64,000 nt of DNA from Rhodoferax mekongensis. Lineage in GTDB: Bacteria > Pseudomonadota > Gammaproteobacteria > Burkholderiales > Burkholderiaceae_C. The stretch lies in assembly GCF_032191775.1 (NCBI RefSeq), contig NZ_CP132507.1, positions 2,071,001-2,135,000 of the forward strand, written 5' to 3'. The notes beneath the pieces were generated by a model that saw only the letters and a program-made list of their open reading frames with translations, searched no databases and was not told where the DNA came from. The translations under genes and the position numbers were made by a program. This document shows positions 2,937 through 52,810 of this stretch, piece by piece (position 1 is the first letter of the stretch; every line of letters starts with the position of its first letter).

Positions 2937-2979
2937 GCTATAAAAAGAATAGCTGCTGGCGCACGTTCTATGTGCGCCA
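2937..2979 (-). repeat. 43-bp dispersed element, copy A (intergenic, reverse orientation)
   Basis: Read on the minus strand this is TGGCGC-N10-TGCGC-N3-CAGCTATT...-ATAGC, with the same length and block spacing as the other copies. It lies between the fasciclin stop (3008) and the start of the binding-protein gene (2922). In this copy the bases around the element extend into a 14-bp perfect stem (2951-2964 with 2972-2985) around a 7-base loop, so it could end or protect the fasciclin transcript. Confidence 0.8.
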
Positions 2980-3007
2980 GCAGCTCATTTGCTTGTTGCT
3001 TTGAGAC

Positions 3008-3502
3008 TTATTTCGCCGGCGGCAGCAACACGGTGTCGACCACGTGCACCACACCGTTGGTGGCAAGCAGGTCAGCGTCGGTCACGGCAGCGTTCTCTAC
3101 GGTGACAAAAGTTCCGGCCTTGGAAACTGCGAGAACTGCGCCATTCAGCGATTTCACATTGCTGTTTTTGATGTCCGCAGCAGCCAGCTTGCCCGGCACC
3201 ACGTGGAATGTCAGTACGGCCTTGAGTTTTTCGGGGTTGGCGGCCAGTTCGTCCAGGGTTTTGGCTGGCACAGCCTTGAATGCGTCGTTGCTGGGCGCAA
3301 ACACGGTGAATGGGCCCGCGCCTTTAAGCGCTTCTGTAAGTCCGGCTTTGGACACCAGGGAGTTCAGGGTGCTCAGAGAAGGGGTGCGGGCGATGGTGTC
3401 AGCCACGCTGACGGGCTGGGACACGGTGGCGCAACCGCTCAAGCCGGCCAGGACAGTGGCTGCGACGATGAGTGTGCGGCGGGAGAGGGCGAATACGGAC
3501 AT
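3008..3502 (-). CDS. Fasciclin (FAS1) domain lipoprotein
   Basis: The protein is about 164 residues. After a short basic start, a hydrophobic signal ends in the lipobox LAGLSGC, so the mature protein should be lipid-anchored in the envelope. The rest is one FAS1 domain: TPSLSTLNSLVSKAGL, then the diagnostic GPFTVFAPSNDAF, LTFHVVPGKL, and the closing NGVVHVVDTVLLP. FAS1 domains are adhesion or surface-interaction modules and the partner is unknown. I chose ATG 3502 because GGAG lies six bases upstream. The frame can be extended to TTG 3514, but that codon overlaps the ribosome-binding site. A possible Pho box sits in front of the gene on its own strand, so phosphate control is conceivable. Confidence 0.85.
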   Translation of the reverse strand: MSVFALSRRTLIVAATVLAGLSGCATVSQPVSVADTIARTPSLSTLNSLVSKAGLTEALKGAGPFTVFAPSNDAFKAVPAKTLDELAANPEKLKAVLTFHVVPGKLAAADIKNSNVKSLNGAVLAVSKAGTFVTVENAAVTDADLLATNGVVHVVDTVLLPPAK

Positions 3503-3545
3503 GGCGGGCTCCAAGGTTGAAAACCGCAGAGCGTAAGTATCTTTT

Positions 3546-3563
3546 GCGTCAGTTTTGTGACAA
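3546..3563 (-). promoter_or_regulatory. Possible Pho box upstream of the fasciclin gene
   Basis: On the minus strand the sequence reads TTGTCAC-AAAA-CTGACGC, two heptamers 11 bp apart. The first fits the PhoB half-site CTGTCAY well and the second only partly. It lies about 45 bp before the fasciclin ATG. It is weaker than the box facing pstS, but the two face opposite ways in one 197-bp intergenic region. Confidence 0.4.
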
Positions 3564-3622
3564 AAGTTTGAAAATCGGGCTTGGCGAAGCTCCTTTGCTT
3601 GCCCCTTTGCATTGGATGCGCT

Positions 3623-3640: not shown

Positions 3641-3699
3641 AAAAGATTCTTAAAGTTCAACCTGTTCGAATTTTCCAACCCTACGTCTAAAGGCTTCCC

Positions 3700-4743: not shown

Positions 4744-4779
4744 GCCGCTGTTGAATTGACACTGACGGAGGAAATCCCC

Positions 4780-14335: not shown

Positions 14336-17002
14336 GTGACAGAAACCAAGTCCCCCCACGACGCCCCGCAAACTATCACCGGCATAGCCAAAAGCGATGC
14401 AGCCCGGGGGCTGCGGGCCTTCTCGTATGCGGCAAGTCATCCCGCCATGGCCTTATGGTCCGCACCCGGTATCGGGCTCGTTCACCGACTGCAGGCGTGG
14501 ATGACGCAGTCTGGAGCCCACCCCGGCCGCACCCTGGTGTTGCTGCCCTATGCCCAACTACTGCCCTTGGCACGCAGGGTGTGGTCGGATCTGCATCCGC
14601 AGGGTTTTTCTCCCAGGTTTGAAACCACCTCGAATTGGCTGGCATCCATGTCCGCGCGGAGGCTCCAGGCTACCGACATCAGCCAGGACATGGCTCTGGA
14701 CACGCTGACAGCCCAACAACTGCTGGCCCAGGCAGGCATGGGAGCTGAATCTTCACTCGCGGGCCTGCTGGCAGAAGCTGCTCAGCAACTCGCACCTTGG
14801 GCAGCGGCTGCAGGTCCCCAGGGGCGCGGGGAATGGGCCTCGCAGGCGCGCGCTGGCGTGTCGGCGGGCATGGAAAGCCAAGCGCTTGCTTGGGAGGCCC
14901 GGGTCGCCCGGATCGCTGTGGAGTGGGCGGCGGTGTCTTCCTATTCCACCGATGTGTTGTTTGACAGTGATGCATTGGAACCATGGGATGCCGTGGCTTT
15001 GGTGCAAGGCTTGGTGTCCGACCCGGTATCCACCGCCCTGAAGGCGCATTGGGGCAGCAAGGCAGAGCTATTCCGGTTGGACAGCCAAGAGCCTGAGGTA
15101 GGCGCCGCTTTGAAACTGGAGTTGGACCACCTGCATTTTCATGCCTGTGCCGATGCCGAAGACGAAGCCCAGCGGGCGGCTGCCTGTGCCATCGCCCATG
15201 TGGCGGCTGATCGCTATCCCTTGGCGCTGGTGTCTTCGGACCGCGCACTGACGCGGCGGGTGCGGGCCATGCTGGAGTCTGCAGGTATTGCCATGCGGGA
15301 TGAGAACGGCTGGAAGCTCTCCACCAGCCGGGCCGGAGCGGCGCTGATGGCCTTGCTGCGGGCTGCCGTCTGGAACGCCAGCACGGATGCCGTGTTAAAT
15401 GCGTTCAAGCAGGCTCCAGCCTTTGCTGCGGACCTTCAGGCTTTGGAACAAGCTTTGCGCAAAGAGCAGGTACGCGATTGGCGCCATGTATCCGGCTGCA
15501 AACCCGTCAAGGACTCAGAGGCTTTGCGCGCCATGTGTGTCCGTATCGATCAGGTGCGCACTGAGTTGAGTGGCAGCCGCCCCTTGCCCGTATGGCTGGC
15601 GCGCATGCAAGCGGTGTTGCAGACTTGCGGTTGGTGGGAGCCTTTACAGGCGGATGAGGCTGGAGCCATGGCGCTGGGTGCACTGCAGCTGACCCAGCCG
15701 GAGCCACAAGTCTGGGCAGACTATGTGGACGCAGCCTTGTGGGCCGGCACCCGTATGGACTTGAGCGCCTTTTCGTCCTGGGTGAATCAGGTGCTCGAAG
15801 CCCACAGCTTCCAACCCGCCTATCCGGATGAGGAACAAGTCGTCATTCTGCCCATGAGCCAGATGCTGGCCCGGCCTTTTGCGGCCGTGGTGCTGGCCGG
15901 CTGCGACGAGGTGCGTTTGAATCCGTCCCCCGAGCCATCAGGCATTTGGACTCCCGCGCAGCGTGCGGCATTGGGCATGCCCTCACGCAAAGAGTTGGAG
16001 GCGCGCTTGCGCGCATCCTGGCGCCAGGCCTTGCAGGCGCCAGCGGTCGAGGTACTGTGGCGCAGCAGTGACGACACCGGTGAACACATCGCGGCCAGCC
16101 CGCTGGTGCAGTGGTTGCGCCTGCAGCCGGGCGCGCAAGAGGCGCTGGCGAGTGATCCACGCACATCCAGGCAGGTCATGCCCGCGCCTGTGCTCCCGCC
16201 TACGCCGCATGGTGACCGATTGTCGGTGCGCCAGTTGTCGGCCAGTGCTTACGAAGATTTGCGCACTTGCCCCTACCGCTTTTTTGCGCTTCGGCAACTC
16301 GGTCTCAAGACGGTGGACGAGTTGGAGTCCGATGTGGACAAGCGGGACTTCGGGCTCTGGCTGCATGCGGTGCTGCAGGAATTTCACACCGCTTTGCAGA
16401 CAGAGTCTTTGAGCGGCCTTGAGCCGCGCAGCACCTTGTTGGAGGCTTGCGCAAACTCGGTGACCGCCTCCATGGGTTTGCCCGATGGAGAGTTTTTGCC
16501 CTTCGCCGCAGCTTGGCCTCATGTGCGCGACGGCTACTTGCAGTGGCTGGAAAAGCACGAGGCCCAGGGCTGGACCTATGCCAGTGGCGAAACCGCGCAC
16601 ACCCAGACTGTGGGCAGCGTCATGCTGATGGGTCGCATAGACCGCACGGACACCGGCACCGGCGGAGCTGTCATGGTGCTGGACTACAAAACCGAGCCTG
16701 CCGCCAAAACCAAAGAGCGGGTCAAAAACCCGCTGGAAGACACCCAGATTGCCTTTTACGCTGCGCTGTTGCCCCACGACACCTTGCAGGCCGCCTACAT
16801 CAATGTGGGCGAGCGGGACGGGACTGTGCCCGTAGAGCAAAAAGACATTGTGCTGGCCCGTGACGCCTTGGTGGAAGGCATCATCTCTGACATGGCCCGA
16901 CTCGCGGCCGGAGAGCCCTTGCCTGCGCTGGGGGATGGCGTGGCATGTGACTACTGCCAGGCGCGTGGCTTGTGCCGCAAAGATTTCTGGAGCGCGCCAT
17001 GA
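14336..17002 (+). CDS. addB: AddB-type ATP-dependent nuclease subunit with PD-(D/E)XK domain and Fe-S cysteines
   Basis: This 888-residue protein should be the AddB half of an AddAB helicase-nuclease that resects double-strand breaks for RecA. The N-terminal two thirds form an inactivated helicase-like fold. The C-terminal nuclease has VMVLDYKTEPAAKT (the D...K pair) and DTQIAFYAALL (the Q...Y helix). Four Cys are placed as in the AddB iron-sulfur fold: C645 in TCPYRFF, then C871, C874 and C880 in CDYCQARGLC. The start is GTG with a weak ribosome-binding site. It overlaps addA by four bases. An equivalent annotation would be PD-(D/E)XK nuclease family protein. Confidence 0.85.
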   Translation: MTETKSPHDAPQTITGIAKSDAARGLRAFSYAASHPAMALWSAPGIGLVHRLQAWMTQSGAHPGRTLVLLPYAQLLPLARRVWSDLHPQGFSPRFETTSNWLASMSARRLQATDISQDMALDTLTAQQLLAQAGMGAESSLAGLLAEAAQQLAPWAAAAGPQGRGEWASQARAGVSAGMESQALAWEARVARIAVEWAAVSSYSTDVLFDSDALEPWDAVALVQGLVSDPVSTALKAHWGSKAELFRLDSQEPEVGAALKLELDHLHFHACADAEDEAQRAAACAIAHVAADRYPLALVSSDRALTRRVRAMLESAGIAMRDENGWKLSTSRAGAALMALLRAAVWNASTDAVLNAFKQAPAFAADLQALEQALRKEQVRDWRHVSGCKPVKDSEALRAMCVRIDQVRTELSGSRPLPVWLARMQAVLQTCGWWEPLQADEAGAMALGALQLTQPEPQVWADYVDAALWAGTRMDLSAFSSWVNQVLEAHSFQPAYPDEEQVVILPMSQMLARPFAAVVLAGCDEVRLNPSPEPSGIWTPAQRAALGMPSRKELEARLRASWRQALQAPAVEVLWRSSDDTGEHIAASPLVQWLRLQPGAQEALASDPRTSRQVMPAPVLPPTPHGDRLSVRQLSASAYEDLRTCPYRFFALRQLGLKTVDELESDVDKRDFGLWLHAVLQEFHTALQTESLSGLEPRSTLLEACANSVTASMGLPDGEFLPFAAAWPHVRDGYLQWLEKHEAQGWTYASGETAHTQTVGSVMLMGRIDRTDTGTGGAVMVLDYKTEPAAKTKERVKNPLEDTQIAFYAALLPHDTLQAAYINVGERDGTVPVEQKDIVLARDALVEGIISDMARLAAGEPLPALGDGVACDYCQARGLCRKDFWSAP

Positions 17003-20000
17003 GTGCCGTGCACGACACCGCCGCCTACGAGGTAAACGGCCGCCACGTAGCAAGGGCCGAGTTTTATGCCATCGCCTGCGACCCCCGCCGCAGCGTGGCG
17101 GTGGAGGCCTGTGCCGGTGCCGGCAAGACCTGGATGCTGGTGTCTCGCATGGTGCGCGCCTTGCTTGATGGCGCAGCGCCGCATGAGATTCTGGCCATCA
17201 CCTTCACCAAAAAAGCGGCCGGTGAAATGCGCGAGCGCCTCTATGACTGGCTGCGAAGCTATGCCCACGCAGATGACGCCAGCTTGCGCCGCGAGCTGCA
17301 GCTGCGCGGTGTGCAGGGCGAGCCCGGCACAGAGCAGCTGGCCAAGCTGCGCGGCTTGCATGAGGCTTTGCTGCTTGCTGGCCGGCCGGTGCAGGTGCGC
17401 ACCTTCCACAGCTGGTTTGCGGCGCTGTTGCGTAGCGCGCCGCTGGGCATGTTGCACCAGCTGGGCTTGCCCACGCAGTACGAGCTGCTGGAGAACGATG
17501 CCAAGGCCATCGCCCAGGTGTGGCGCCGCTTTCACACCCGCATTGCCCAGGATGCGGCGGCCCGCGCTGACTATCTGGAGGCGGTAGGCGTCTACGGGCG
17601 CCACGGCACGCTCAAGGCGCTGGAAGCCGCTATCTACAAGCGCACCGAGTTTGCCCTGGCTGACGAACAGGGCGTGGTCGACGCGTCGGTGTTGCATTTC
17701 ACGCAGCAGTTCCCGGCCATGTCGGCGTGGTCGCAGCCCCAGGAGCGTATGTTCAGCGACGTGGCGCAACAGCTGCTCTGGGCCAGTGCCAAAGCGCTGG
17801 GCGCCAGCAGCCTGAAGACCTGCACAGAAGCAGGCTCGGAACTGGAGAAAGCGCTGACCTCACGCGATGCCACCGCGATTTTCAAAGCCCTTTTCACCGA
17901 CAAAGGCACCCCTCGCAAACTGAGCGAAAAGGTGGTCGGCATTGAGACCGTGCGCGAAGCCCAGGCCTTGCTGGCCGAGACCAAAGCCGCCATGGACCAG
18001 CACCAGGCCTGGCTGCACCAGCAACGCATGGCCCGCCTGAGCCGGGGCTTGCTCCAAGACTACGCCGCCCTCAAGCGCGAGCGGGGCTGGATTGACATGG
18101 GCGATCTGGAGCAGGCCGCATTGCGCCTGCTCTCGGAGGAAGAGATTTCCGGCTGGCTGCAGGAGCGCCTGGATGCACGCGTCAAGCACTTGCTGATCGA
18201 CGAGTTTCAGGACACCAACCCCTTGCAATGGCAGGCCCTGAGCACCTGGTTGCAGGGCTACGGCGGCGCGGGCAACCGCCCCGGGGTGTTCATTGTGGGC
18301 GACCCCAAGCAGAGCATTTACCGCTTCCGCCGCGCTGAACCGCAGGTCTTCCGCGCAGCCAAAGCGTTTGTGGTGGAGGGCTTGCAAGGCGATGTGCTGA
18401 GCTGCGACCACACGCGGCGCAATGCGCAGGCCATCATCAGCGTGGTGAACACGGCCATGCAGGCCGCGCAGGATGCCGGTGAGTTTGAAGACTTCCGGCA
18501 GCACACCTCCGAGTCGGTGGACGCCGGCTCGGTGTGGAAGCTGCCACGCATCGAGCGCACCGCCAAACCCGAAGAAGATGGGTCTGAGGAAATGGGCTGG
18601 CGCGACAGCCTGACCACGCCTCGCCACGAGTCCGAAGACACCCTCAAAACCCTGGAGTGCCGGCAGGCCGCCCTGTGGTTGGCCGGGCAGCTCAGCGGGC
18701 GCGGCGGGCACTTGCGGCCGCAAGACATCATGGTGCTGGCCCGCAAGCGCGAACGCTTGACGCTGATGCAGCAAGAGCTGGCGGCACTGCGCATTCCGGC
18801 CCAGCAGCCTGAGAAAAACGAGTTGGGCGAGATGCCCGAAGTGCAAGACCTCGTGGCCTTGCTCGATGTGCTGGTGTCGCCCGCGCACGACCTGTCACTG
18901 GCGCGTGCGCTCAAGTCGCCTTTGTTTGGTGCGAGCGATGAAGATCTGGTGGACTTGAGCCTCTTGCACCAGACAGCCCGCCGCCAGGCACGCGCGGCAG
19001 ACCCCGAAGCGCTCGTACCCGGCTGGTTGGCGGTGTTGTGTGAGTTCGCCGCCGCCGACCCGGACGTGGAGGGCGGCTTGCCCCTGAACCCGCGCATGCT
19101 GTCGGCAGCCCGGTCCCTCACACGCTGGCAGGGCTGGGTACAGAGCTTGCCTGTGCACGATGCACTGAGCGCCATCTATGACGACGGTGACGTGTTGGCC
19201 CGCTTCGCCGCCGCCAGCCCGGCGGTGCTGCGGGAGAGTGTCTTGGCCAATGTGCGCGCGTTGCTCAATGCCGCCTTGCAGGTGGACGGCGGGCGTTACA
19301 GCACCGCCTACACCCTGGTACGCGCGCTGCGTGCCGGCGGCATTCCCGCGCCGGTGCGGGCCGACGCAGGCGCGGTGCGCCTGCTCACCATCCACGGCGC
19401 CAAGGGGCTGGAGGCGCCGCTGGTGATATTGCTGGACACTGATGCCGAAGGTACCCGGCCCGAATCCATGGGCGTGCTCGTGGATTGGCCGGGCGAGGCT
19501 GCTTACCCCCGCAAGTTTGTGTTTCTGGCCAGCGAGTCCCGCCCACCTGCCTGTGTGGTGGATACCCTTGCTTTGGAGCAAACCGCCCGCGCGCGGGAGG
19601 AACTCAATGCTTTGTATGTAGCGCTCACCCGTACCCAGTCCACCCTGGTGCTCTCCAGCACCGCGCCCCACCGCGAGCGCGAGGGCAGCTGGTGGAAGCG
19701 CTTGCAGGAGCTTGCGGCAGACATTGCGCCTTCCACGGCTCTCGAGGGGGTAGACAGTGCGGAGTCGACCGAATCGGACACTGCTGAGCCCTTCGCTTTG
19801 TGGGTGCTCCCCACTGAAGGTTTGAAGAGAAAAGTGCCTCTAGCGCCCATGGAATATGCGCGAGCAGCTTCTGAATTAATAGCGGTTGCTGAGCGGGAAA
19901 GTTTGGAGTCCCGTATCGGCCAAGCCATGCACCGCTTGCTGGAATGGCTGCCGCTGCGCGAGGGCCAGGTACCAGACGCAGATGCATGGACGCCTGAGCA

Positions 20001-20376: not shown

Positions 20377-21681
20377 TTGACTGATCTGCCTACCTCTCCC
20401 CGTTCTGAATCCCAAGCCTTGCAGGTGGACGTTGCCATTGTGGGCGGCGGCCCTGCCGGACTCATGGCTGCCCAAGTGCTGTGCGATGCCGGTTTGACCG
20501 TGCACCTGTTCGACGCCATGCCCTCGGTGGGCCGCAAGTTTTTGCTGGCCGGCAAGGGTGGCCTGAACCTCACCCACTCCGAAGGCGCCGACACGTTCGC
20601 CGGCCGCTATGGCGAACGGCGCAGCGCCATCGAGACCTTGCTAACCGGGCTGGATTCCACCGCGCTGCGTGAATGGGCCCACGGCCTGGGAGTGGAAACC
20701 TTTGTGGGCAGTTCGGGCCGGGTGTTTCCCAAAGACATGAAAGCGGCGCCTTTGTTGCGCGCCTGGTTGCACCGCTTGCGCCACCCTGCAGCAGGCGGCG
20801 GGGTGCAGTTCCACATGCGCCATCGCTGGACAGGTTGGGCGCAGGGCACATCCGCCGAGCCGGGCCAACAAGCGCTGGTGTTCGACACGCCTACCGGTCC
20901 GGTCGTGGTGCAAGCCCGCGCTGTGGTGCTGGCGCTGGGTGGCGGCAGTTGGGCGCGCCTGGGGTCGAACGGCGCCTGGGTGCCTTTGCTGGCAGCCCGT
21001 GGCGTAGCCGTGGCACCTTTGGTGCCGGCCAATTGCGGTTTCGATGTGCAGGGCGGGTGGTCGCCGTTTTTCAACGCAAAGTTTGCCGGCCAGCCTTTCA
21101 AGTCGGTGGCACTCAGCTTTACCAATTCGCAGGGCGTGGTGTTCTCGCGCAAGGGCGAGTTTGTGGCCACGCAGGGCGGTGTGGAAGGCAGCTTGATATA
21201 CGCGGCATCGGCCTTGCTGCGCGACGACATCGTGCGCCATGGCAGCGCTACTTTCCATTTGGATTTGTTGCCCGACATGCCCACTGAGAAGGTACTGGCC
21301 GAAGTGCGCCACCCGCGTGGCAGCCGCAGCCTGTCCAGCCACCTCAAGAGCCGCTTGCATCTGGACGGCATCAAAAGTGCCATTCTTTACGAGTGCCTGG
21401 GCAAAGAGGCAGTGAACGATCCCGAGAAACTGGCCGCAGCCATCAAGGCACTACCCGTCACGCTGCAAGCGGCACGCCCGATTGACGAGGCCATCAGCAG
21501 TGCGGGGGGGGTGTTGTTTGAGGTGCTGACGCCTCAGCTCATGCTGGAGCAGGTGCCCGGTGTGTTCTGCGCCGGCGAAATGCTGGACTGGGAAGCCCCT
21601 ACCGGCGGCTACCTGTTGCAGGCCTGTTTTGCCAGTGGCAAGCAGGCTGGACGGGGTGCGCTCGATTATCTGCGTTCTTGA
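20377..21681 (+). CDS. FAD-dependent NAD(P) oxidoreductase, HI0933/YhiN family
   Basis: The 434-residue flavoprotein has an N-terminal Rossmann loop VAIVGGGPAGLMAAQVL, the family segment SVGRKFLLAGKGGLNLTHSE, a mid-chain VVLALGGGSWARLGSNG and the C-terminal FAD loop GVFCAGEMLDWEAPTGGYLLQ. Family members are widespread but biochemically poorly defined. The start is probably TTG 20377, nine bases after the addA stop; no ATG fits the N-terminal sequence. The addA TGA overlaps an ATG (20367) that opens a five-codon reading frame in another phase, ending inside this gene. That could re-initiate ribosomes, or mark an indel in the sequence. Confidence 0.88.
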   Translation: MTDLPTSPRSESQALQVDVAIVGGGPAGLMAAQVLCDAGLTVHLFDAMPSVGRKFLLAGKGGLNLTHSEGADTFAGRYGERRSAIETLLTGLDSTALREWAHGLGVETFVGSSGRVFPKDMKAAPLLRAWLHRLRHPAAGGGVQFHMRHRWTGWAQGTSAEPGQQALVFDTPTGPVVVQARAVVLALGGGSWARLGSNGAWVPLLAARGVAVAPLVPANCGFDVQGGWSPFFNAKFAGQPFKSVALSFTNSQGVVFSRKGEFVATQGGVEGSLIYAASALLRDDIVRHGSATFHLDLLPDMPTEKVLAEVRHPRGSRSLSSHLKSRLHLDGIKSAILYECLGKEAVNDPEKLAAAIKALPVTLQAARPIDEAISSAGGVLFEVLTPQLMLEQVPGVFCAGEMLDWEAPTGGYLLQACFASGKQAGRGALDYLRS

Positions 21682-21748
21682 TTAAATCGCCTTGCGGCGC
21701 TCGTCGAATATGCGCAGGATGCTCCTGAATCGATAGCACTACGGCCTT

Positions 21749-23674: not shown

Positions 23675-23711
23675 AACGAAGTGGCGCACTGAGAGGGGGA
23701 AGTTGTTAGTT

Positions 23712-23844: not shown

Positions 23845-25905
23845 ATGTCCTATCTCGTGCTCGCCCGCAAGTACCGCCCCCGCTTTTTTCAAGAAATGGT
23901 GGGGCAGGACCACGTGGTGCAAGCCCTGACCAACGCACTGACGACCCAGCGCCTGCACCATGCTTATTTGTTCACTGGTACGCGCGGCGTAGGCAAGACC
24001 ACCGTCTCGCGCATTCTGGCCAAGTCGCTGAACTGCCAGGGCGTGGACGGGCAAGGTGGCATTACGGCGACGCCCTGTGGCGTGTGCCAGGCCTGCACCG
24101 ATATTGATAGTGGCCGCTTTGTGGACTACACCGAGCTCGATGCCGCCTCCAACCGGGGCGTGGATGAAGTGCAGGCCTTGCTCGAGCAGGCCGTTTACAA
24201 GCCGGTGCAGGGACGCTTCAAGGTCTTCATGATCGACGAGGTGCACATGCTCACCAACACCGCCTTCAACGCCATGTTGAAGACGCTGGAAGAGCCACCC
24301 GAGTACCTGAAATTTGTGCTCGCCACCACCGACCCGCAGAAGGTGCCGGTTACCGTGCTTTCGCGCTGTCTTCAGTTCAACCTACGACCCATGGCGCCGG
24401 AAACCATCCGCGAGCACCTGACCAAAGTGCTGGACGTGGAGCAGGTAAGCGCCGAAGCCCAAGCCCTGCGTTTGTTGGCACGTGCCGCACGCGGCTCCAT
24501 GCGCGACGCCCTGAGCCTGACCGACCAGGCGATTGCTTTCGGTTCCGGCCAGTTGCAAGAGGCCACCGTGCGTCAAATGTTGGGCAGTGTGGATCGCTCG
24601 TATGTATTCCGGCTGATTGAGGCGCTCGCCGCAGGCGATGGCAAAACGGTGGTCGATACCGCTGAGGCCTTGCGCCTCAATGGCTTGAGCGCTGCCTCCA
24701 CGCTGGAAGAAATGTCCACCGTGCTGCAGCGCATGGCTGTGGCGCAAGCAGTAGGGCAGGGCGCATTGGATGAGGGTGACCCCGAAGCGGTGGATACAGC
24801 CCGCCTGGCTGCCGCCATGCCTGCGGATGAAACCCAGTTGCTGTACAGCATCTGCCTGCATGGCCGCGCAGACTTGGGGCTGGCGCCGGATGAATACGCG
24901 GCACTCACCATGGTGTTGCTTCGCTTGTTGGCGTTCAAGCCCGCGGCTGAAAAAAAAACTCTAGCGATTCCTGAGCGACAGCAAGTCGCGGATCATGTCG
25001 CGGATCCTGTTGCGGTTTCCGTCGCTCCCGCGAGCGCAGTTGCGCAGGGTTCTGTGGCATCCAGCCCTCTTTCTGCGCCTCAGCCTGCACCTGCACCTGC
25101 GCCCTCCGTGGCTGCTGGGACAGTCCATGGGGCTGTTGGATCTGTCGCGCCCAAAGCGGTCCAACCCTGGGAAGACGCCCCGGCAGCCTCGCCCGTGGCC
25201 GCGTCTCCCGCTCCTGCAGCTGCCGCACCGCAAAACTTCCCGCCCGTGGTGCCACCGGGCCAGGTCTTGGCGGTGCGCGAAAGCGGTCCGGTGCATGTGC
25301 CTGAAAGAGCGGAAGAGGATGACGTCATGGTGGCGGATGACCCTGTAGACGATGCGTTTGAGGCGCCCTGGGTCGACGACATCGACGAAGATTACGAATC
25401 CAATGTGCCGCTAGCGCCCATCGTGTCTGCGCCGACAGCTACCAAAATCGTAGCAATTCCGGTGCAGGAGTTGCAGGAAAGTGCCATCGATGAACCCTTG
25501 TCGGCTACCGGCTTTGAGCCCACCGAAGAGGGCGACTTCTGGCACCAGACGGTCACGCAGCTGATTGAGACGGAAGCCATTACCGCTATGGTGCGCGTGC
25601 TGGCCCTGCAGTCTCAACTGATCGCGCGGGATACCGACCAATGGCTGTTGCGTCTGGAGCGCGAATCCTTGAACCAACCCAGCACCCGCGAACGCTTGAC
25701 CAATGCCTTGCATGCTGCAGGGTATCCGGTGCAGCTTGCCATTGAAGTGGGGCGGGTGGTGGACAGCCCAGCCCGCCGCAATGCCGCGGCTTCGGCCGAA
25801 AAACAGCAGGCTGCGGAGCGGATAATTCTGGAAGCCCCTTTTGTTCAAGCCATGATGCGGGACTTCGGCGCGAAAATCGTGCCCGGATCCATCAAGCCCC
25901 TGTGA
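23845..25905 (+). CDS. dnaX: DNA polymerase III subunit gamma/tau
   Basis: This clamp-loader ATPase is 686 residues (tau). Walker A is GTRGVGKTT at about 45-53, the zinc site is in CGVCQAC with an upstream Cys, the DExx box is [10 protein letters not shown], and sensor 1 is [19 protein letters not shown]. The clamp-loader core ends near residue 368. A Pro/Ala-rich linker follows (about 375-530), then the polymerase-binding domain ([18 protein letters not shown] onward). At codons 369-371 a run of nine A with stops close behind in both shifted frames suggests that a shorter gamma of 372-376 residues is also made. A 43-bp repeat encodes residues 523-537 at the end of the linker. ybaB follows after 46 bases. 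Confidence 0.96.
24950..24958 (+). promoter_or_regulatory. A9 slippery run in dnaX, candidate gamma-producing site
   Basis: GAA-AAA-AAA-ACT reads through in frame 0. One extra A, or a -1 shift, gives AAC-TCT-AGC-GAT-TCC-TGA with the stop at 24972-24974. One A fewer, or a +1 shift, gives CTC-TAG with the stop at 24962-24964. The site is at the end of clamp-loader domain III. Slippage in A runs produces gamma in Thermus by transcription and in E. coli by frameshifting. Confidence 0.6.
25412..25454 (+). repeat. 43-bp dispersed element, copy C, inside dnaX (sense)
   Basis: TAGCGC-N10-TGCGC-N3-CAGCTACCAAA-N4-TAGC. The first base is codon position 2, and the encoded stretch is [17 protein letters not shown], in the variable linker of tau. 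Both this copy and copy B are preceded by the same VP dipeptide, giving VPLAP in both proteins. Confidence 0.8.
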
Positions 25906-32301: not shown

Positions 32302-32326
32302 GCAGATTTATCAATGTTGTGTGCTG

Positions 32327-40269: not shown

Positions 40270-40800
40270 ATGTCCCTAGACAATGTCACCCCCGGCAGCA
40301 AAGTGCCTGAATCGTTCAACGTCATCATCGAGATCTCGATGAACGGCGACCCCATCAAGTACGAAGTGGACAAGGCCTCCGGCTGCATCTTTGTGGACCG
40401 TTTCATGAACACGGCCATGCACTACCCCACCAACTACGGTTACGTGCCCAAGACCATCGCGGGTGACGGCGACCCGGTGGACGTGTTGGTGATCACCCCC
40501 GTGCCCCTGCCACCCGGTGTGGTGGTTCCTTGCCGTGCCATCGGTATCTTGAAGATGGAAGACGAAGGCGGCCTGGACGGCAAAGTGCTGGCGGTGCCTA
40601 CTGACAAGATCCTGCCCCTGTATTCCCGTTGGAAGACGCTGGATGACCTGAACCCCGTGCGTCTGAAGGCCATCGAGCACTTCTTTGAGCACTACAAAGA
40701 TCTGGACACCGGCAAATGGGTCAAGGTCCAAGGTTGGGGCGGTGTGGACGAAGCCCACAAGGAAATTCTGGACGGCATCGCCGCCTACAACCAGCAGTAA
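40270..40800 (+). CDS. ppa: Soluble inorganic pyrophosphatase, family I
   Basis: The 176-residue cytoplasmic enzyme removes pyrophosphate from biosynthesis. It has the family I motif [13 protein letters not shown] with the catalytic Asp cluster, and the earlier [16 protein letters not shown] and [12 protein letters not shown] segments. A long in-frame extension to 40060 is rejected: ATG 40270 gives the exact family start and has AAAGAGAGA upstream. It is divergent from hppA, so the cell encodes an energy-conserving and an energy-wasting pyrophosphatase side by side. Confidence 0.96.
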
Positions 40801-40810
40801 GCGGTATGGA

Positions 40811-40840
40811 CCTGAAACACTGCGCTCAGCGTGTTTCAGG
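40811..40840 (+). other. 10-bp perfect hairpin after ppa
   Basis: CCTGAAACAC and GTGTTTCAGG pair perfectly around a 10-base loop, ten bases after the ppa stop. No T-tract follows; the element copy D and a strong terminator come next, so this hairpin probably protects the ppa mRNA end. Confidence 0.6.
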
Positions 40841-40844
40841 CCCC

Positions 40845-40887
40845 TGGCGCCCGTCCGGCGTGCGCGAGCAGCTATCAAAAAAATAGC
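40845..40887 (+). repeat. 43-bp dispersed element, copy D (after ppa)
   Basis: TGGCGC-N10-TGCGC-N3-CAGCTATCAAA-AAAA-TAGC, a full match to the consensus. Its last bases ATAGC are the start of the 5-prime arm of the following terminator. Confidence 0.85.
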
Positions 40888-40920
40888 GTCCCGAGGGAAA
40901 TCCCCGGGACGCTATTTTTT
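40878..40920 (+). terminator. Intrinsic terminator of ppa, built on the end of repeat copy D
   Basis: AAATAGCGTCCCG pairs with CGGGACGCTATTT, with a small inner GGG/CCC stem, and ends in six T. The reverse strand also has an A-to-T tract, so it can serve the convergent hydrolase gene too. Confidence 0.9.
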
Positions 40921-40938
40921 CGCCTGAACTCCGTGCGT

Positions 40939-41733
40939 TTAGCGTTGCGGGTCAGGAAACAGCAGGCGCGCCAGAGAGCTACCGGGCTGAAATGCTTGCC
41001 ATTGACCCTCCGCCTGCGCAAGCCGGTCTGCCACCACCCACCATGCGCTGGGGTTCAGCCCCAGGCCGATATGGCTGGCAAACACTTCCACGTTTTCGGT
41101 ATGCGGCTGCTTGCGGCTTTTGGCCTGCAGGCTCGCTTGCCAAGCCACGACACCGTCGCTGCGGGAATAGACGGAGGTGGTCGGCACAGGGGGCGCGCCA
41201 GCCAAGTCAAACTGCTCGATCGCGTCTGTGATCTTGTGTCCTGCAGTCAGTTCATAGAGCTTCCAGGCATTGGTGCTGGTGTGGGAGCCGCCAAAGGGCG
41301 TTCCCAACGTAATCACCGCGCGCACCTGATCGGGCAACTCTTTGGCCAATTCGCGGGCGTAGATTCCGCCCAGGCTCCAACCTACCAGGCTGACTTTTCG
41401 GCCGGTACTTTGCGCGAGCTCCAGGATTTGCTGGCGCGCAGTCTCCAAAACGCCCGCGCGCGGGCCGAAGTTGTAGCCCTGGTTCCAGCCGGACACGTCA
41501 TAGCCCAGGTTCTTCAGGTAGGCCCGCAGGGGCAAAGTGGATCCATCACTGGCCGTCAGTCCGGGGAAAACCAGCACGGGGTGGCCGTCGCCGGCGGGGG
41601 CCTTGGACAACACCGGCCAGCTGGGCAGCACCGACCATAGCTCCCACGGCGCGCGCAACTCGAGCGCAATCAAGTGCCAGCCGGGTGCAGCAGGGTGGGG
41701 TGTGGGTTCTGACGAAGGGGCTTTGCTTGCCAT
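40939..41733 (-). CDS. Alpha/beta hydrolase, lipase-like
   Basis: The 264-residue protein has the nucleophile elbow VGWSLGGIYARELA, an upstream HPVLVFPGLTASDGSTLPLRAYLKNLGYDV that fits the oxyanion strand and first helix, and a late His in VFASHIGLGLNPSAWWVVADRL. No signal peptide is seen, so it is probably cytoplasmic. It most resembles esterase/lipase-like proteins of unknown substrate. It converges on ppa. The 233 bases upstream (41734-41966), between this gene and the divergent cheW, hold no gene and are AT-rich near cheW. Confidence 0.75.
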   Translation of the reverse strand: MASKAPSSEPTPHPAAPGWHLIALELRAPWELWSVLPSWPVLSKAPAGDGHPVLVFPGLTASDGSTLPLRAYLKNLGYDVSGWNQGYNFGPRAGVLETARQQILELAQSTGRKVSLVGWSLGGIYARELAKELPDQVRAVITLGTPFGGSHTSTNAWKLYELTAGHKITDAIEQFDLAGAPPVPTTSVYSRSDGVVAWQASLQAKSRKQPHTENVEVFASHIGLGLNPSAWWVVADRLAQAEGQWQAFQPGSSLARLLFPDPQR

Positions 41734-42561: not shown

Positions 42562-44673
42562 ATGCCATTCTCTTTTTTGAGTTCCTTGCGCGGCAAGATT
42601 GTGGGCTTGGTCGGCCTGCTGGTGCTGCTGGGGCTCGCAGGCTTGTCTGCGACCAATGTTTACACGGCCCGCTCGCATGCATTGGAGTCGCTCGACAACC
42701 AGACCCGCGCCCTGGCCCATTCGCATGCCACCGGTGTGGCGGAGTGGATTGCCAGCCGGCATCAGGTGGTCAAGTCCTTCGGTTTTGCTGTCAATGAAGC
42801 AGATCCACTGAAGTTTCTAGAGGCAGCCAAAGTGGCGGGCGATGTCGACTCGGCCTACATCGGTTATGCCGACAAGCGCACGGCCTTCTCCGAAAAGCAA
42901 AATCTGCCACCGGATTACGACCCGACGGCACGCCCTTGGTACCAGTTGGCCGCTGCATCGCAAGGCCCGGCGCTGACGCCTCCTTATGTAGATGCGGGTT
43001 CCAAAAAATTGGTAATCACCTTCTCTGCTGCCATCCGTGAGGGTGGGGCGGTCAAGGCGGTGACAGCGGTTGATGTGTTTATGGACGGTGTGGTGCGCAA
43101 TGTGGCCTCCATCCGGCCGACGCCGGGCACCTACGGTTTCATCGTCGATAAAGCCGGCAAGATCATGGTGCACGAGGACACAGCCCTGGTGCTCAAGCCC
43201 GTCACCGATATTGCGCCTGATCTTGGAGGCAGCGGACTGGAGGCCTTGAGCAAGGCAGAGGCAGTTCGGGACATCCAAATCTCCGGTGAAAGCCGTTTGG
43301 CCTACGCCACGCCCATTGCCGGAACCGACTGGTTTCTGGTGATCGCGCTCAAGCGCCAGGAAGCCATGGGCGGCATTACCGCCATGGTGTGGTCCTCGGC
43401 GGTGGGTAGTCTGGCGATTGCCGTGGTCGCGGTCTTGCTGATCGGTGCCGTCCTGACCAAGGTGCTGGCGCGCCTGGTGGTGCTCAAAGATGCCATGCAG
43501 GACATAGGTTCCGGCCAGGGTGATTTGACCCGCCGTATTGAAACTTCAGGCAATGACGAGTTGGCTGCAATCGCTACCGGTTTCAACCAGTTTGTAGAGA
43601 AGACACAGGGTGTGCTCAAGCAAGTGCGCTCCAGCGCCGACGCAGTCGCCACCGCCAGCGCTGAAATCGCCCAAGGCAACAACGACCTCTCCGCCCGCAC
43701 CGAACAACAAGCCAGCGCCCTGGAAGAAACCGCAGCGTCCATGGAAGAACTCGGCTCCACCGTCAAACAAAACGCCGACTCCGCCCGTCAGGCCAATCAA
43801 CTGGCCATGAATGCCTCTACCGTGGCTATTCAAGGTGGAGAAGTCGTCGGCCAGGTCGTGGAGACCATGAAAGGCATCAATGAGTCCAGCCGCAGAATTG
43901 CAGACATCATCAGCGTCATTGACGGCATTGCCTTCCAGACCAACATCCTGGCCCTGAATGCAGCCGTAGAAGCCGCTAGAGCAGGAGAACAAGGCCGGGG
44001 CTTTGCCGTCGTAGCTTCTGAAGTCCGGTCCCTCGCAGGACGGTCTGCCGAAGCTGCCAAAGAAATCAAGACCCTGATCAACGCCAGCGTAGAGCGGGTA
44101 GAGCAAGGCAGTAGTCTGGTAGACAAAGCCGGTGAAACCATGACCGAAGTGGTCAGCAGCATCCGGCGGGTGACCGACATCATGGGAGAAATCAGCGCAG
44201 CCAGCTCCGAACAGAGTGCCGGTGTCTCACAGGTTGGAGAAGCAGTCACCCAGATGGACCAGGCCACGCAACAGAATGCTGCCTTGGTGGAAGAGATGGC
44301 AGCGGCTGCCAGCAGCCTGAAGAGTCAGGCCAATGATCTGGTGCAGGTGGTGGCGGTATTCAAACTGGGCAACGAAAGCCACGGCGCTTATTCCAGCAGC
44401 AGCCCGTCCAGCGGTGGTAGTCACGCGTTGGCAAGCCCCTTGCCCAAAGCAGCCGTGCGCTCCAACCCACCCCAGAAGTTGAACTTTGCAGGGCCCGAGC
44501 GCAGGGCAGCGGCCGCAGCAAGTTCTGCCAAAACTGCCCCCAAGCCAGCCGCCAAACCGGCAGCCTCACCGGCCAAAGCCCCGCCGGTGCTGACTGCTCA
44601 GGCCATCTCGCCGCCCAAGACCAGCAGCCGCGTCACGCCTGCGGGCGGGGATGATGATTGGGAGACTTTTTAA
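42562..44673 (+). CDS. Methyl-accepting chemotaxis protein with Cache sensor
   Basis: The 703-residue chemoreceptor has TM1 at about 10-30 and a periplasmic Cache domain at about 35-275 ([46 protein letters not shown]). TM2 is at about 282-305, then HAMP, then a signalling domain with [21 protein letters not shown] and the hairpin tip [25 protein letters not shown]. After an Ala/Pro-rich flexible tail it ends DDDWETF, a WETF pentapeptide type that tethers CheR and CheB. The Cache type suggests amino or organic acids as ligands. The stop overlaps that of the convergent COG3146 gene. Confidence 0.92.
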
Positions 44674-45863
44674 ACCGGCTTCTTGAGCGGCGTACGCTGC
44701 TCCAGGTGTTCCAAGTAGTTTTGGATGCCTTCGCCTTCACGCTCCAGAAAGCGCTGCACCGCATCCGCAAACGCCGGGTGCTGCAGCCAGTGGGCACTGC
44801 TGGTTTTGACGGGGAGCAGGGCGCGGGCCATCTTGTGTTCGCCCTGGGCGCCGCCCTCAAAGCGCCGGTAGCCATTCGCAATACACCATTGCAATGGCTG
44901 GTAGTAGCAAGCCTCGAAGTGCAGGCAGTCCACATGCTCCACAGCGCCCCAGTAGCGGCCGTACGCAACCCGGTCTTCTGTATCAAATAGGCCTGTAGCG
45001 CCCGTGGAACGAGCGCCAACAGCTATCAAACTGCTAGCAATGGACTTGCCTCCGCGCTCCGCCACAAACAGCAGCCAATGCTCGGGCATGGTGGCGGCCA
45101 TGCGCCGGAAGAAGTCGGGCGTCAGGTAGGGCGGGTTGCCGTGCTCGCGATAGGTCCGGGCATAGCAGCGGTAGAAGAAATCCCAATCTGCAGCGCTGAT
45201 GTCTGCGCCTTGGCTGTGGCGGAACGTGACCCCAGCCCCAGCCACCTTGCGACGCTCCTGCTTGATTTTCTTGCGCTTCTCCTGATTCATGGACTGCAGG
45301 AACTGGTCAAAGTCTGCATAGCCCGGCGTAGTGTTGTGCCAGTGGAACTGCACCGTATGCCTTGCCATCCATGCGGCATCCTTAGCACTCTGCATGTCGG
45401 CATCGGCGGCAAACAGCATGTGGGCCGATGACACGTTCACCGACTCGCACCACGCCTGCACCGCCTGCAGCAGCGCTGCGCGGGCCTGTGCATCCACCGC
45501 CAGCAAGCGGGTGCCGGGCACGGGGGTGAAAGGCACGGCAATCACGCCCTTGGGGTAGTACTCCAGGCCGTGTTGCTGGTAGGCGCTGGCCCAGGCCCAG
45601 TCGAACACGTATTCGCCATACGAATGGTCTTTCAGGTAAACCACGCAGGCGGCGCACAAGGCCTCGTCCCGGTGCAGGGTGATGAAGTGGGCGCTCCAGC
45701 CGGTCGCGGCCGTGGCGCTGCCGCTCTCAGCCATGGCGGCCAAGTAAGCGTGGCGCATGAAGGGGGTAGGGTGGCTTTGCGTGGCCAGCAGCGCATCCCA
45801 AGCTCGGGAATCCACCTCAGAGGGTGTCGCTGACACCCGGATGACATAATCAGTGCTACCCAT
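44670..45863 (-). CDS. COG3146 family protein (GNAT-fold, peptidogalycan-type, function unknown)
   Basis: This 397-residue protein contains the COG3146 landmarks [94 protein letters not shown] and [18 protein letters not shown]. It belongs to the FemX-like GNAT superfamily; no substrate is established. A 43-bp repeat in antisense orientation encodes residues 276-290 ([16 protein letters not shown]), just before the conserved YGRYWG, where relatives that I recall have a shorter loop. Convergent with the MCP gene; divergent from nadE. Confidence 0.85.
44996..45038 (+). repeat. 43-bp dispersed element, copy E, inside the COG3146 gene (antisense)
   Basis: TAGCGC-N10-AGCGC-N3-CAGCTATCAAA-N4-TAGC on the plus strand, while the gene is on the minus strand. 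The gene reads it from the other end with the first base as codon position 1, and that frame is open. Confidence 0.8.
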
Positions 45864-45936: not shown

Positions 45937-47972
<2,036 letters not shown>

Positions 47973-47981
47973 GCTAAACGC

Positions 47982-49636: not shown

Positions 49637-49671
49637 GGCGTCGATTGATGCGGATGTAGGGTTACAGCCGC

Positions 49672-50109: not shown

Positions 50110-50672
50110 AGCCGGATCCCCTTTCCTTTCAACGCATTTCCCAAGGCCTGTACTGCTCTGGAGCAGTGTGTTTTGACGCTGCCTTGTGAGCAGCCCATTG
50201 CGGCAGCCGTTTCCGCAACATCCATATCCTCCCAATAACGCATAAGGAAGGCTTCCCGTTGACGTGGCGGCAACCGCAATATCTCTTCTTCTATCGAAAG
50301 CAAGGTTTGTGCACGCTCGGTTTGCGTTTCCGCACTTTCTGATTGTTCTCCGCCTTGGTCGGTTACCAAGGACTCCAATAGATTGAAGTCATCGTCCTCA
50401 GTTCCCGACTCGAAATCACTCAATGTTGAAAACAGAGCGCTGTAAGTCTTCTGCCGGCGAAACCAGTCCAGGGTGCTGTTGGACAAGATCCGCTGAAACA
50501 GCATGGGGAGCTCTTCGACCGGCTTGTGGCCGTAATGTTCGGCCAGCTTCATCATGCTGTCCTGAACGATATCCAAAGCGGATTCATCGTTGCGGACATG
50601 GTATGCCGCCCGTTTGAAGGCCCGTCTTTCGACACTTTTCAGGAAATCAGAGAGTTCTTTTTCGGTTGCCAA
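50106..50672 (-). CDS. ECF-type RNA polymerase sigma factor
   Basis: The 188-residue sigma factor has region 2 at about 10-75 (RRAFKRAAYHVRNDESALDIVQDSMMKLAEHYG, TLDWFRRQK) and region 4 at about 125-180 (EEEILRLPPRQREAFLMRYWEDMDVAETAAAMGCSQGSVKTHCSRAVQAL, quoted in family order). A long acidic linker SDFESGTEDDDFNLLE lies between them. It is the first gene of the sigma-DUF3619-DUF3106-RDD run and is divergent from ilvB. The signal it responds to is unknown. Confidence 0.92.
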   Translation of the reverse strand: MATEKELSDFLKSVERRAFKRAAYHVRNDESALDIVQDSMMKLAEHYGHKPVEELPMLFQRILSNSTLDWFRRQKTYSALFSTLSDFESGTEDDDFNLLESLVTDQGGEQSESAETQTERAQTLLSIEEEILRLPPRQREAFLMRYWEDMDVAETAAAMGCSQGSVKTHCSRAVQALGNALKGKGIRL

Positions 50673-50964
50673 GTGACGGGACCATTGAAGGCATAAACTA
50701 AAGTCTGACAGTCTGTCTCAACGCAATATTTCTGGCGGAGAGGCCCGTGATTATTGCATTCCGGCAAGGACTGCAAACCGACGTCCGAAAGTGCGTGTCT
50801 AAACAAATGCCATAATACCGGTGCTATTAAAAGGCAAACGGGTCCTGGTCCGGCGCAACATTCAATGCGTCCATGGCTTTGACCTTAAGTCCCGACGCGA
50901 CTCCACAAGTGTTTGCGAAGGGGCACCCAAGGTTTTTCGTCAGAGAAATTCACAAAGGTTCATC
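50673..50964 (+). promoter_or_regulatory. ilvB / sigma-factor intergenic region with ilvB leader
   Basis: The 292 bases between the divergent starts hold no convincing gene. A frame in phase with ilvB is open from 50821, but it is Arg/Ser/Cys-rich and lacks a ribosome-binding site. CATAAT at about 50810 is a possible -10 for ilvB, which would leave a leader of about 150 bases. No Ile/Val/Leu-rich leader peptide was found. Confidence 0.4.
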
Positions 50965-52743
50965 ATGGAAATTTCTAAAGCCGAAATCGCTTCGGCCGCA
51001 TCCGCATCCAAATCCGCCGCTGTTCCCGAATTGAGGGGCGCGGAAGTCCTTGTCAAAGCGCTACAAGCCGAAAACGTCAAATATATCTGGGGTTACCCCG
51101 GTGGTGCAGTTCTGCACATTTACGACGCTTTCTACAAGCAAGACACGATCCAACACGTTCTGGTACGCCACGAGCAAGCAGCCGTGCATGCTGCCGACGG
51201 CTATGCCCGTGCCACCGGTGATGTCGGCGTGGCGTTGGTGACATCCGGGCCGGGTCTGACCAATGCCGTGACCGGCATTGCTACTGCTTACATGGATAGC
51301 ATTCCCATGGTGATTATTTCCGGTCAGGTGCCTACGCACGCGATCGGACTGGATGCTTTCCAAGAGTGCGACACAGTCGGCATCACACGCCCCATCGTGA
51401 AGCACAACTTTCTGGTGAAGGACGCCAAGGACATGGCGGAAGTCATGAAGAAGGCGTTCCATATCGCTCGCAGTGGTCGTCCCGGCCCTGTGGTCGTCGA
51501 TATTCCCAAGGACGTGTCTTTTAAGAAGGTGCCCTATCACGGCTACCCGGAGAGCGTGGAAATGCGTTCTTACAATCCGGTGCGCAAGGGGCATGGTGGG
51601 CAAATTCGCAAGGCCTTGCAACTGTTGTTGACCGCCAAACGTCCTTATATCTACACCGGTGGCGGCGTGTTGCTGAGCAACGCTTCCAACGAACTCCGCA
51701 CTCTGGTGGACATGTTGGGCTACCCCTGCACCAACACCTTGATGGGTCTGGGTGCGTACCCTGCGAGTGACCGCAAGTTCCTCGGCATGCTGGGCATGCA
51801 CGGTACCGTCGAAGCCAACAACGCCATGCAGAACTGCGATGTGCTGCTGGCGGTGGGTGCGCGTTTCGATGACCGCGTGATTGGCAACCCCAAGCACTTC
51901 GCCCAGAATGAGCGCAAGATCATTCATATTGACATTGACCCATCCAGCATCTCCAAGCGGGTGAAGGTCGATATTCCTATCGTGGGCGATGTGAAGGACG
52001 TGCTCAACGAAATGATCGCGATGATCCGCGAGGGTTCGACCAAGCCTGACGCGAATGCACTGGGTGCTTGGTGGGACACGATTGAAGGCTGGCGCAAGCG
52101 CGATTGCATGAAGTACAGCCCCGGCAACGGCGATGTGATCAAGCCGCAGTATGTCGTGGAAACTCTTTGGAACATGACCAAAGACGCCGATACCTACATC
52201 ACGTCCGATGTGGGGCAACACCAGATGTGGGCTGCGCAGTACTACAAGTTTGACGAGCCCCGTCGCTGGATCAACTCCGGTGGTCTGGGAACCATGGGCG
52301 TGGGCATTCCCTATGCCATGGGCATCAAGCTGGCCAAGCCGCAAAGCGAGGTGTTCTGCATTACCGGCGAAGGCTCGGTACAAATGAACATCCAGGAGCT
52401 TTCCACCTGCCTGCAATACAACACGCCTATCAAGATCTGCTCCTTGAATAACCGTTATCTCGGGATGGTGCGTCAGTGGCAGGAAGTGGAATATGAAGGT
52501 CGCTACAGCCACAGCTATATGGATGCATTGCCGAATTTTGTGAAGTTGGCGGAAGCCTATGGTCACGTCGGTATGTTGATTGAGCGCCCCCACGATGTGG
52601 AACCCGCATTGCGCGAGGCCCGCAAACTCAAGGACCGCACCGTGTTCATGGACTTCCGCACAGATCCCACTGAAAACGTGTTCCCCATGGTCCAAGCCGG
52701 CAAGGGCATCACAGAGATGCTGCTCGGGTCGGAGGATCTCTAA
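50965..52743 (+). CDS. ilvB: Acetolactate synthase large subunit (biosynthetic type)
   Basis: The 592-residue thiamine-diphosphate enzyme makes acetolactate or acetohydroxybutyrate in branched-chain amino-acid synthesis. The N-terminal catalytic Glu is in VLVRHEQAAVHAADGYARATG, the FAD domain has PSSISKRVKVDIPIVGD, and the thiamine motif is GEGSVQMNIQELSTCLQYN...CSLNN. I chose ATG 50965 with AAAGG upstream. It precedes the regulatory subunit gene ilvH by 136 bases, a gap that contains a copy of the 43-bp repeat. Confidence 0.96.
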   Translation: MEISKAEIASAASASKSAAVPELRGAEVLVKALQAENVKYIWGYPGGAVLHIYDAFYKQDTIQHVLVRHEQAAVHAADGYARATGDVGVALVTSGPGLTNAVTGIATAYMDSIPMVIISGQVPTHAIGLDAFQECDTVGITRPIVKHNFLVKDAKDMAEVMKKAFHIARSGRPGPVVVDIPKDVSFKKVPYHGYPESVEMRSYNPVRKGHGGQIRKALQLLLTAKRPYIYTGGGVLLSNASNELRTLVDMLGYPCTNTLMGLGAYPASDRKFLGMLGMHGTVEANNAMQNCDVLLAVGARFDDRVIGNPKHFAQNERKIIHIDIDPSSISKRVKVDIPIVGDVKDVLNEMIAMIREGSTKPDANALGAWWDTIEGWRKRDCMKYSPGNGDVIKPQYVVETLWNMTKDADTYITSDVGQHQMWAAQYYKFDEPRRWINSGGLGTMGVGIPYAMGIKLAKPQSEVFCITGEGSVQMNIQELSTCLQYNTPIKICSLNNRYLGMVRQWQEVEYEGRYSHSYMDALPNFVKLAEAYGHVGMLIERPHDVEPALREARKLKDRTVFMDFRTDPTENVFPMVQAGKGITEMLLGSEDL

Positions 52744-52767
52744 GCAGATTTACGTCAATTAGTGCTC

Positions 52768-52810
52768 TGGCGCGCATCCCGTGTGCGCGAGTTGCTATCA
52801 TTTTTGAAGA
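52768..52810 (+). repeat. 43-bp dispersed element, copy G, in the ilvB-ilvH gap
   Basis: TGGCGC-N10-TGCGC-N3-TTGCTATCATT... with the same spacing; the final TAGC is lost (AAGA). It starts 25 bases after the ilvB stop and would be transcribed with the operon. Confidence 0.65.

Follow-up and report, generated by a model that had tools for sequence, protein, structure and literature searches.

What keeps one short sequence at seven places in a 64-kb stretch of the Rhodoferax mekongensis chromosome? A sequence-only reading of this stretch (positions 2,071,001 to 2,135,000 of contig NZ_CP132507.1, 64,000 nucleotides, referred to hereafter as the window) described a dispersed element of exactly 43 bp and took it to be a structured, mobile or RNA-level unit. 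We suggest tentatively, and with somewhat less than even confidence, that the repeat acts as a DNA recognition tag, ~65 bp long and composite, which is maintained by selection or drive and most likely belongs to the uptake type, and that the tags were apparently shaped in place by selection. Their fixed positions, constraint, dialects, in-place origin and all-or-none presence together indicate a trans-acting reader of DNA. By analogy with known systems we infer this reader to be a DNA-binding receptor which would recognise the tag, so that tagged DNA would be handled preferentially and the tags would be kept and spread. The likeliest form of such handling would be that cells undergoing natural transformation take up kin DNA in preference to other DNA and then recombine it (molecular drive), as with the uptake signal sequences (USS) of Pasteurellaceae and the DNA uptake sequences (DUS) of Neisseria. 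A lineage losing the reader would then see its tags erode.

The repeat is clearly in excess over chance, as the strict form of its pattern matches 38 times in the 3,889,336-base genome (18 and 20 by strand) and the reversed pattern not once. A covariance model, R1 (67 columns), was trained on 42 copies including the seven first described, the scores of which are therefore not independent. On the whole genome it detected at least 150 copies, all full length, with scores of 49–79 bits; the 150 copies listed are spread over the chromosome with no positional domain, and an orientation check proposed with the sequence-only reading gave 74 plus and 76 minus among them, showing no strand or replication bias. 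A region of 184 kb searched in full contained 23 copies at ≥23.9 bits, compared to nothing above 7.4 bits in its reversed sequence, and extrapolation from this region suggests a whole-genome number of ~490. Spacing between copies is random (coefficient of variation, CV, 1.05).

The occurrence of similar sequences in other Comamonadaceae, suggested with the sequence-only reading, was borne out: of 399 family genomes, 80 have the strict pattern, at up to 63 copies per genome and with 0 control matches. When R1 was applied to 32 hand-picked family genomes (7 as same-genus contrast, 21 mostly without strict matches and 4 rich ones), 10 carried from 18 to at least 150 copies, two had one copy and 20 had none. 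Across the genomes scanned, presence is near all-or-none and high numbers are confined to part of the Comamonadaceae. None of the genomes outside the family had more than two R1 matches in a search of 300 genomes of the order with stricter filters, and in the 16 out-of-family genomes with one or two matches most were near threshold. The stretches of named genomes in our listing (at least 120) belong mainly to Polaromonas, Rhodoferax, Acidovorax, Simplicispira, Giesbergeria, Diaphorobacter and Xenophilus, as well as to unclassified Comamonadaceae or Burkholderiales. A locus from Polarisedimenticolaceae (L265) has the strict core only and looks like a chance match; a strict match was also seen on 29 viral contigs, several of these being the core only, by chance in coding sequence.

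The anatomy of the unit was derived from 102 copies in twelve genomes, collected by a profile without a pairing requirement and numbered from the first base of the 43-base block as 0. Summed information is 57.7 bits over 67 columns. The length of 43 bp proved too short, as conserved columns extend ~20 bases upstream and 1–2 bases downstream of the block, giving a unit of ~65 bp. In words, it consists of a T-rich start, a GTCAAAT-type A/T tract, GGCCTC, TRGCGC, a spacer, GCGCRRCAGCTAY, a second A/T tract, RTAGC and a final A. The upstream columns are T-rich at -20 to -18, A/T at -11 to -8 and GG(C/G)C at -6 to -3; the core comprises (C/T)RGCGC at 0–5, the spacer, GCGC at 17–20 and RRCAGCTAY at 22–30; and downstream there is an A/T tract at 32–36, RTAGC at 38–42 and A at 43. 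Free variation of the spacer positions, as first described, does not apply to the first spacer, where the majority sequence in the R. mekongensis genome begins CCCGTGGAAT.

Several columns of the tag are purine-only, pyrimidine-only or A/T-only. Columns -10, -9 and 33–35 are 95–100% A or T, with A and T interchanging and G and C nearly absent, and TpA steps are rare in the A/T tracts (2/82 and 2/72). Tracts near -19, -9, 34 and 44 form two pairs, with a distance of about one helical turn inside a pair and of about four turns from one pair to the other, a phasing read off the columns by inspection rather than by statistics. The 3' block forms the dyad GCTAY-N7-RTAGC. Of the 19 occurrences of the combination GCGC-N-RR-CAGCT in 184 kb, 18 fall within tag copies, and the dyad with an A/T core occurs nine times, always within copies, vs two matches in the reversed-sequence control. 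As the plain dyad pattern matches that control 12 times, the specificity of the dyad rests on its A/T-core form.

Positions of the tag are shared between species. All 18 comparable copies of the 23 in 184 kb have a counterpart at the same place in genome G349, with 77–91% nucleotide identity in the aligned blocks. Six window copies were compared with G349, G287, G125 and G217 and the element or a decayed form was in place, in 6/6 cases for both G349 and G125. In another genus, seven of eight G255 copies checked were alignable and all seven sites were occupied in both G071 and G378, in species at ~90–93% identity (site sharing in the window-copy and G255 comparisons was judged by eye). There is no presence/absence difference at the 18 and 7 between-species sites, contrary to the idea of a mobile unit. 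At the 18 sites shared with G349, the 28 informative columns are 90.3% identical and the 18 uninformative ones 64.5%, in a comparison of profile-chosen copies that favours conserved columns. From the shared places and the column constraint we conclude that the tag is of old date, does not move on this scale and is under constraint. With the tag-free genomes G177 and G320, six comparisons could be made at the G255 sites, and none revealed an element. At one place where its relatives are occupied (L372:17656), G177 retains GCTAC-N7-ATAGC, which resembles the 3' dyad and is perhaps the relic of a lost tag.

The suggested link to a REP (repetitive extragenic palindromic)-type transposase did not hold either: PF01797, the family of the REP-associated tyrosine transposase (RAYT), is present in 18/21 tag-rich and 16/20 tag-free genomes, with seven genomes counted as tag-rich by strict pattern counts alone, and three tag-rich genomes (G217, G020 and G141) have no PF01797 at all. 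A REP element with its RAYT is not supported, given this lack of association and the mostly in-gene position of the copies.

Thirteen of the 23 copies in 184 kb lie inside predicted genes, on either strand, three overlap a gene end and seven are intergenic, in a region that is 91.8% coding (gene positions are from a simple custom gene caller). Host genes there include dnaX, a RecB-like helicase gene, nadE, a FemAB-like gene, gcvT, lpxB and a SpoU methylase gene; elsewhere they include purL, argF, lolD, kefC, thiL, tex and a GDPD gene. Orthologues of purL and argF were drawn from 30 family genomes. An argF tag of ≥31 bits was found in 11/17 tag-rich and 0/14 tag-free genomes, and the segment concerned has 47 residues both in tag carriers and in tag-free G320 and G018, and 43–45 in the other tag-free genomes. 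Motif log-odds in argF are 57.4 with the tag vs -13.8 and -25.5 in G320 and G018, respectively. Compared to G320 there are 27 differences within the tag, 22 of them toward the motif, including six of seven synonymous ones; outside the tag there are five differences in 35 bases. A purL tag of ≥28 bits was found in 13/17 tag-rich and 0/14 tag-free genomes (the remaining tag-rich genomes giving 14.4, 13.0 and 8.4 bits and none). Most tag-rich genomes have 46 residues in this segment, two others having 44 and 50; its length is 40–43 in 13 tag-free genomes and 52 in one, with the anchors F.A(K/R) and Y..K-type largely kept.

The lolD product is gapless against the E. coli-type protein, and those of kefC and nadE each have three more residues than tag-free homologues. 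Length therefore changes by just 0–7 residues in five of the eight genes tallied, which suggests that the tag arose there by substitution in place. Sequence comparison thus points to an in-place origin at argF, purL, lolD, kefC and nadE, and in-frame insertion of the kind seen with Rickettsia palindromic elements was dropped for these five genes, in which there is no element-length gap.

Tags also differ between lineages in what may be called dialects, the consensus and the spacer triplets varying by genome. An AGA triplet after GCGC is present in 7/10 listed copies of G125 vs 1/38 in R. mekongensis (G000), and G125 carries AGA at the shared sites 19821 and 46671. In a tree from a quick search with two genes, tag columns excluded, tag-free genomes are nested among tag-rich ones; five changes are needed, at least four of which are forced by well supported branches. 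Our reading of these sequences is that of one old origin followed by several losses, with purL going back to the short loop in the losing lineages, although repeated gains of the tag could also have produced this pattern.

Finally, R. mekongensis has 29.7 kb that G349 lacks, most of it a 27-kb island for benzoate/catechol degradation, and this DNA carries 0 copies vs 4.2 expected (P 0.015). The 27-kb segment (G000:C1, ~2167152-2193986; L172 and L173) has a GC content of 0.54 vs 0.59 and no tag; it encodes a Rieske dioxygenase, a catechol dioxygenase, a muconate-lactonising-type enzyme, a CoA-transferase and a thiolase, with an impB/mucB-type polymerase gene at its edge.

Within the window the following copies were recovered (coordinates of the original 43-base blocks in brackets, scores with R1):

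2933..2999, minus strand: copy 1 (2937-2979), intergenic by the simple gene caller, 56.3 bits.
19821..19887, plus strand: copy 2 (19841-19883), inside a UvrD/RecB-like helicase open reading frame (ORF), 16972-20367, 63.5 bits.
21675..21741, plus strand: copy additional to the original seven, intergenic, 33.6 bits.
25392..25458, plus strand: copy 3 (25412-25454), inside dnaX, ORF 23845-25905 (Pfam), 64.1 bits.
40825..40891, plus strand: copy 4 (40845-40887), intergenic, 63.7 bits.
44976..45042, plus strand: copy 5 (44996-45038), inside a minus-strand FemAB-like gene, ORF 44670-45863, PF04339, 65.1 bits.
46671..46737, plus strand: copy 6 (46691-46733), inside nadE, ORF 45937-47613 (NAD synthetase homologues), 60.1 bits.
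52748..52814, plus strand: copy 7 (52768-52810), degenerate, intergenic and overlapping the start of the ilvH RNA, 45.0 bits.
63958..64000, plus strand: additional copy cut at its 3' side by the window end, inside a predicted gene on the genome, 34.6 bits.

The element is thus present at all seven of the places first described (45–65 bits), and the identical block spacing was confirmed, with 0 indels across the 43-base block. The number seven is correct as far as it goes but incomplete, given the additional copies at 21675-21741 and 63958, the latter reaching 38.4 bits with a profile hidden Markov model on a longer stretch; a match at 32307 is doubtful (13.2 bits with R1). The original 43-base consensus proved too strict: with up to three mismatches allowed it retrieves only 4/7 copies (two exact and two with one mismatch), against 0 matches in each of 100 shuffles, and a hand count gave four mismatches for the copies at 2937 and 19841 and six for that at 52768.

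The helicase ORF with copy 2 has the Pfam domains PF00580 and PF13361, and in alignment the place of this copy is also occupied in G349, G287 and G125, with a divergent form in G217. The place of 21675-21741 holds an element in G349 and G125 and a poor one in G287 (9.2 bits). The ATAGC end of copy 4 is at the same time the base of a hairpin with a T-run behind it (40883-40920), an arrangement repeated in G349 and G287; a terminator scan of 40500-41100 found none. An ilvH cis-regulatory RNA (RF02993, 52806-52873, plus strand, 89 bits) starts within the end of copy 7. Elsewhere in the window there are a small signal recognition particle (SRP) RNA gene at 23709-23804 (minus strand) and two tRNA genes at 60722-60795 and 60853-60926 (plus strand). 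Among the other genomes, a second dispersed repeat of ~60 bp (L371:6461-6520) has many matches in G378 and several in tag-free G177, and tag-free G320 has several matches to L371:17053-17130, some of them next to each other.

The description of the element as a two-hairpin palindromic unit finds weak support here. Long first stems do exist in some lineages (GCGCCCG/CGGGCGC in G255, GCGCTTG/CAAGCGC in G120), while the first stem in R. mekongensis is GCGC/GCGC only; the stem columns are near-invariant and covariation is weak. Columns that hardly vary give little information on pairing. In 24 column pairs tested in the 102 copies, pair (6,16) was reached by 1/500 shuffles and pair (31,37) by 7/500, and each of the others by at least 33/500, the inner pair of the GCTAT/ATAGC stem by 58/500. 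The RNAalifold covariation term was 0 (42 copies), and an alternative stem register brought no improvement in the covariation test. A hairpin is possible in some dialects, and the data do not require one. A downstream T-run (≥5 T in the next 47 bases) was present in just 1/22 copies with full flank, so that a role as intrinsic terminator was dropped, and no Rfam overlap with the window copies was found besides the ilvH RNA start at copy 7.

How, then, do other explanations fare? Points against an uptake-type tag concern its size and number: 57.7 bits far exceed the 14 bits that would suffice for marking ~490 sites, an excess more usual for copies made by duplication, density is ~1 per 8 kb rather than 1 per kb, and spacing is random. 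Some genes are also longer than the tag reading would predict, with seven more residues in the PurL segment than in Salmonella and 12 more in ThiL than in tag-free homologues. In GDPD and tex the gains of 20 and 24 residues are each about one element long, and these genes and thiL make up the three of eight with larger gaps; insertion or loop growth is possible at all three, and in-frame insertion of the Rickettsia kind at GDPD and tex. The island test (134 kb/30 kb) rests on one region. Several of these observations would be expected of an ancient miniature insertion element (similar to Rickettsia palindromic elements, REP or BRE) that had a single phase of spread by transposition, no longer moves and lies in-frame in genes, the similarity of its copies being due to descent. 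The information excess and the gains in GDPD and tex speak for it, as does the restriction of use, out of six sense/antisense frames, to those open through the tag, and there are precedents for in-gene repeats in the available text on BRE (PMC3110155) and on REPs in recB-type genes (PMC3733652). We nevertheless consider this explanation unlikely, if a serious contender, since an element-length gap is missing from argF, purL, lolD, kefC and nadE, in which residues within the tag region are retained, 0 polymorphic sites were seen among the 18 and 7 compared, and there is no association with a transposase, PF01797 being the family checked. Further to that, dialects differ between species at the same site, which is not given by descent alone.

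In-place origin, dialects, turn-spaced A/T tracts and the dyad GCTAY-N7-RTAGC would fit equally a site bound by a protein of chromosome organisation, of recombination or of the nucleoid, selected for that role with no link to uptake, and the all-or-none presence likewise suggests a trans-acting reader. Chromosome-organising systems usually need fewer than hundreds of 65-bp sites, however, and the random spacing, the lack of a positional domain and the balance of 74 plus and 76 minus among the 150 listed copies spread over the chromosome also argue against such a role, which we regard as improbable. Much less probable still is an RNA-level element (terminator, stabiliser or processing site) built of hairpins. 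Long stems in G255 and G120, the 7/23 intergenic copies vs 8% of sequence and a related piece in Acidovorax ebreus, placed at 44 convergent vs 4 divergent positions according to the accessible part of PMC5217627, are set against 13/23 copies inside genes on either strand, little covariation, the T-run in 1/22 copies and the absence of Rfam families from the copies, the start of the ilvH RNA at copy 7 aside.

To our knowledge, uptake-type tags are established in just two bacterial families. The fuller proposal, to which we give slightly less credence than to a recognition tag as such, would be that the tags of Comamonadaceae (Burkholderiales) make up a third family of genomic uptake tags, one that evolved independently. 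It would be the longest known, a 65-bp site whose two-block core is framed by two pairs of A/T tracts one helical turn apart. Its demands would be such that core proteins, PurL and ArgF among them, have additional residues in their loops to accommodate it and shed these residues in lineages that lose the system. A third uptake-type case in a large environmental family would allow, through its natural gains and losses, a test of drive versus selection, and would mark lineages that exchange DNA by transformation. Even with another reader protein, hundreds of 65-bp sites in core genes reached via codon-level substitution would be an unusual protein constraint. The tag can also serve as a marker of gene history, because recently acquired islands are without it.

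The open-access literature, subscription journals being largely outside its scope, yielded no description of the full element nor of uptake sequences in Comamonadaceae. The accessible part of a 2017 motif survey (PMC5217627) lists GCTTAT(N)5AAGCG in A. ebreus TPSY as a possible novel motif with no function, at 114 copies of which 107 are intergenic, and describes the inner pair alone. This pair matches the stem-loop piece of those tags that have a GCGCTTAT..AAGCGC stem, and it occurs in 4/120 named loci listed, in at least three plainly inside the tag; GCTTAT(N)5AAGCG is thus probably a piece of the tag. The Polaromonas pair ATAGCT(N)22CAAAAG of the same survey was found once in the 120 loci, outside the tag, and is not a match.

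Rickettsia palindromic elements are repeats read through in protein genes, and they are insertions, unlike the tag at several of its sites here. REP sequences tagged with GTAG/CGTC and accompanied by a RAYT resemble the tag in being short palindromic repeats of high copy number, some in genes (available text of PMC3733652); the tag differs in having no 5' GTAG/CGTC on its hairpin, in lying mostly in genes and in its lack of association with RAYT. BRE, compared by description only, share the occurrence in betaproteobacteria including Comamonadaceae and the presence of some copies inside coding sequence, but are ~90 bp long, have 69% GC in Bordetella and form tandem arrays, as far as the accessible part of PMC3110155 describes them.

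The system most like the tag, which is known here from its sequence, is that of the uptake sequences, and we take it as the closest working model. From what is accessible of the respective reports, USS are repeats of strong consensus and not insertions, and they show AT-rich flanks, subclade types and frequent loss (PMC1626085), DUS are absent from recently acquired genes (PMC2397512), and DNA uptake is linked to the shape of AT tracts (PMC7811141). In-place origin of USS and DUS was established by protein gap tests, which here give gaps of 0–7 residues in 5/8 genes and of 12, 20 and 24 residues in the other three. With a core of 9–10 bp and about one copy per kb in USS and DUS, compared to ~65 bp and one per 8 kb in the tag, the differences in length, information and density are such that we do not file the tag as USS or DUS. 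Features that the tag shares with both are copy numbers in the hundreds with both strands used, a strong-consensus core with AT-rich tracts next to it, subclade types, core-genome positions, absence from recently acquired genes and loss in lineages.

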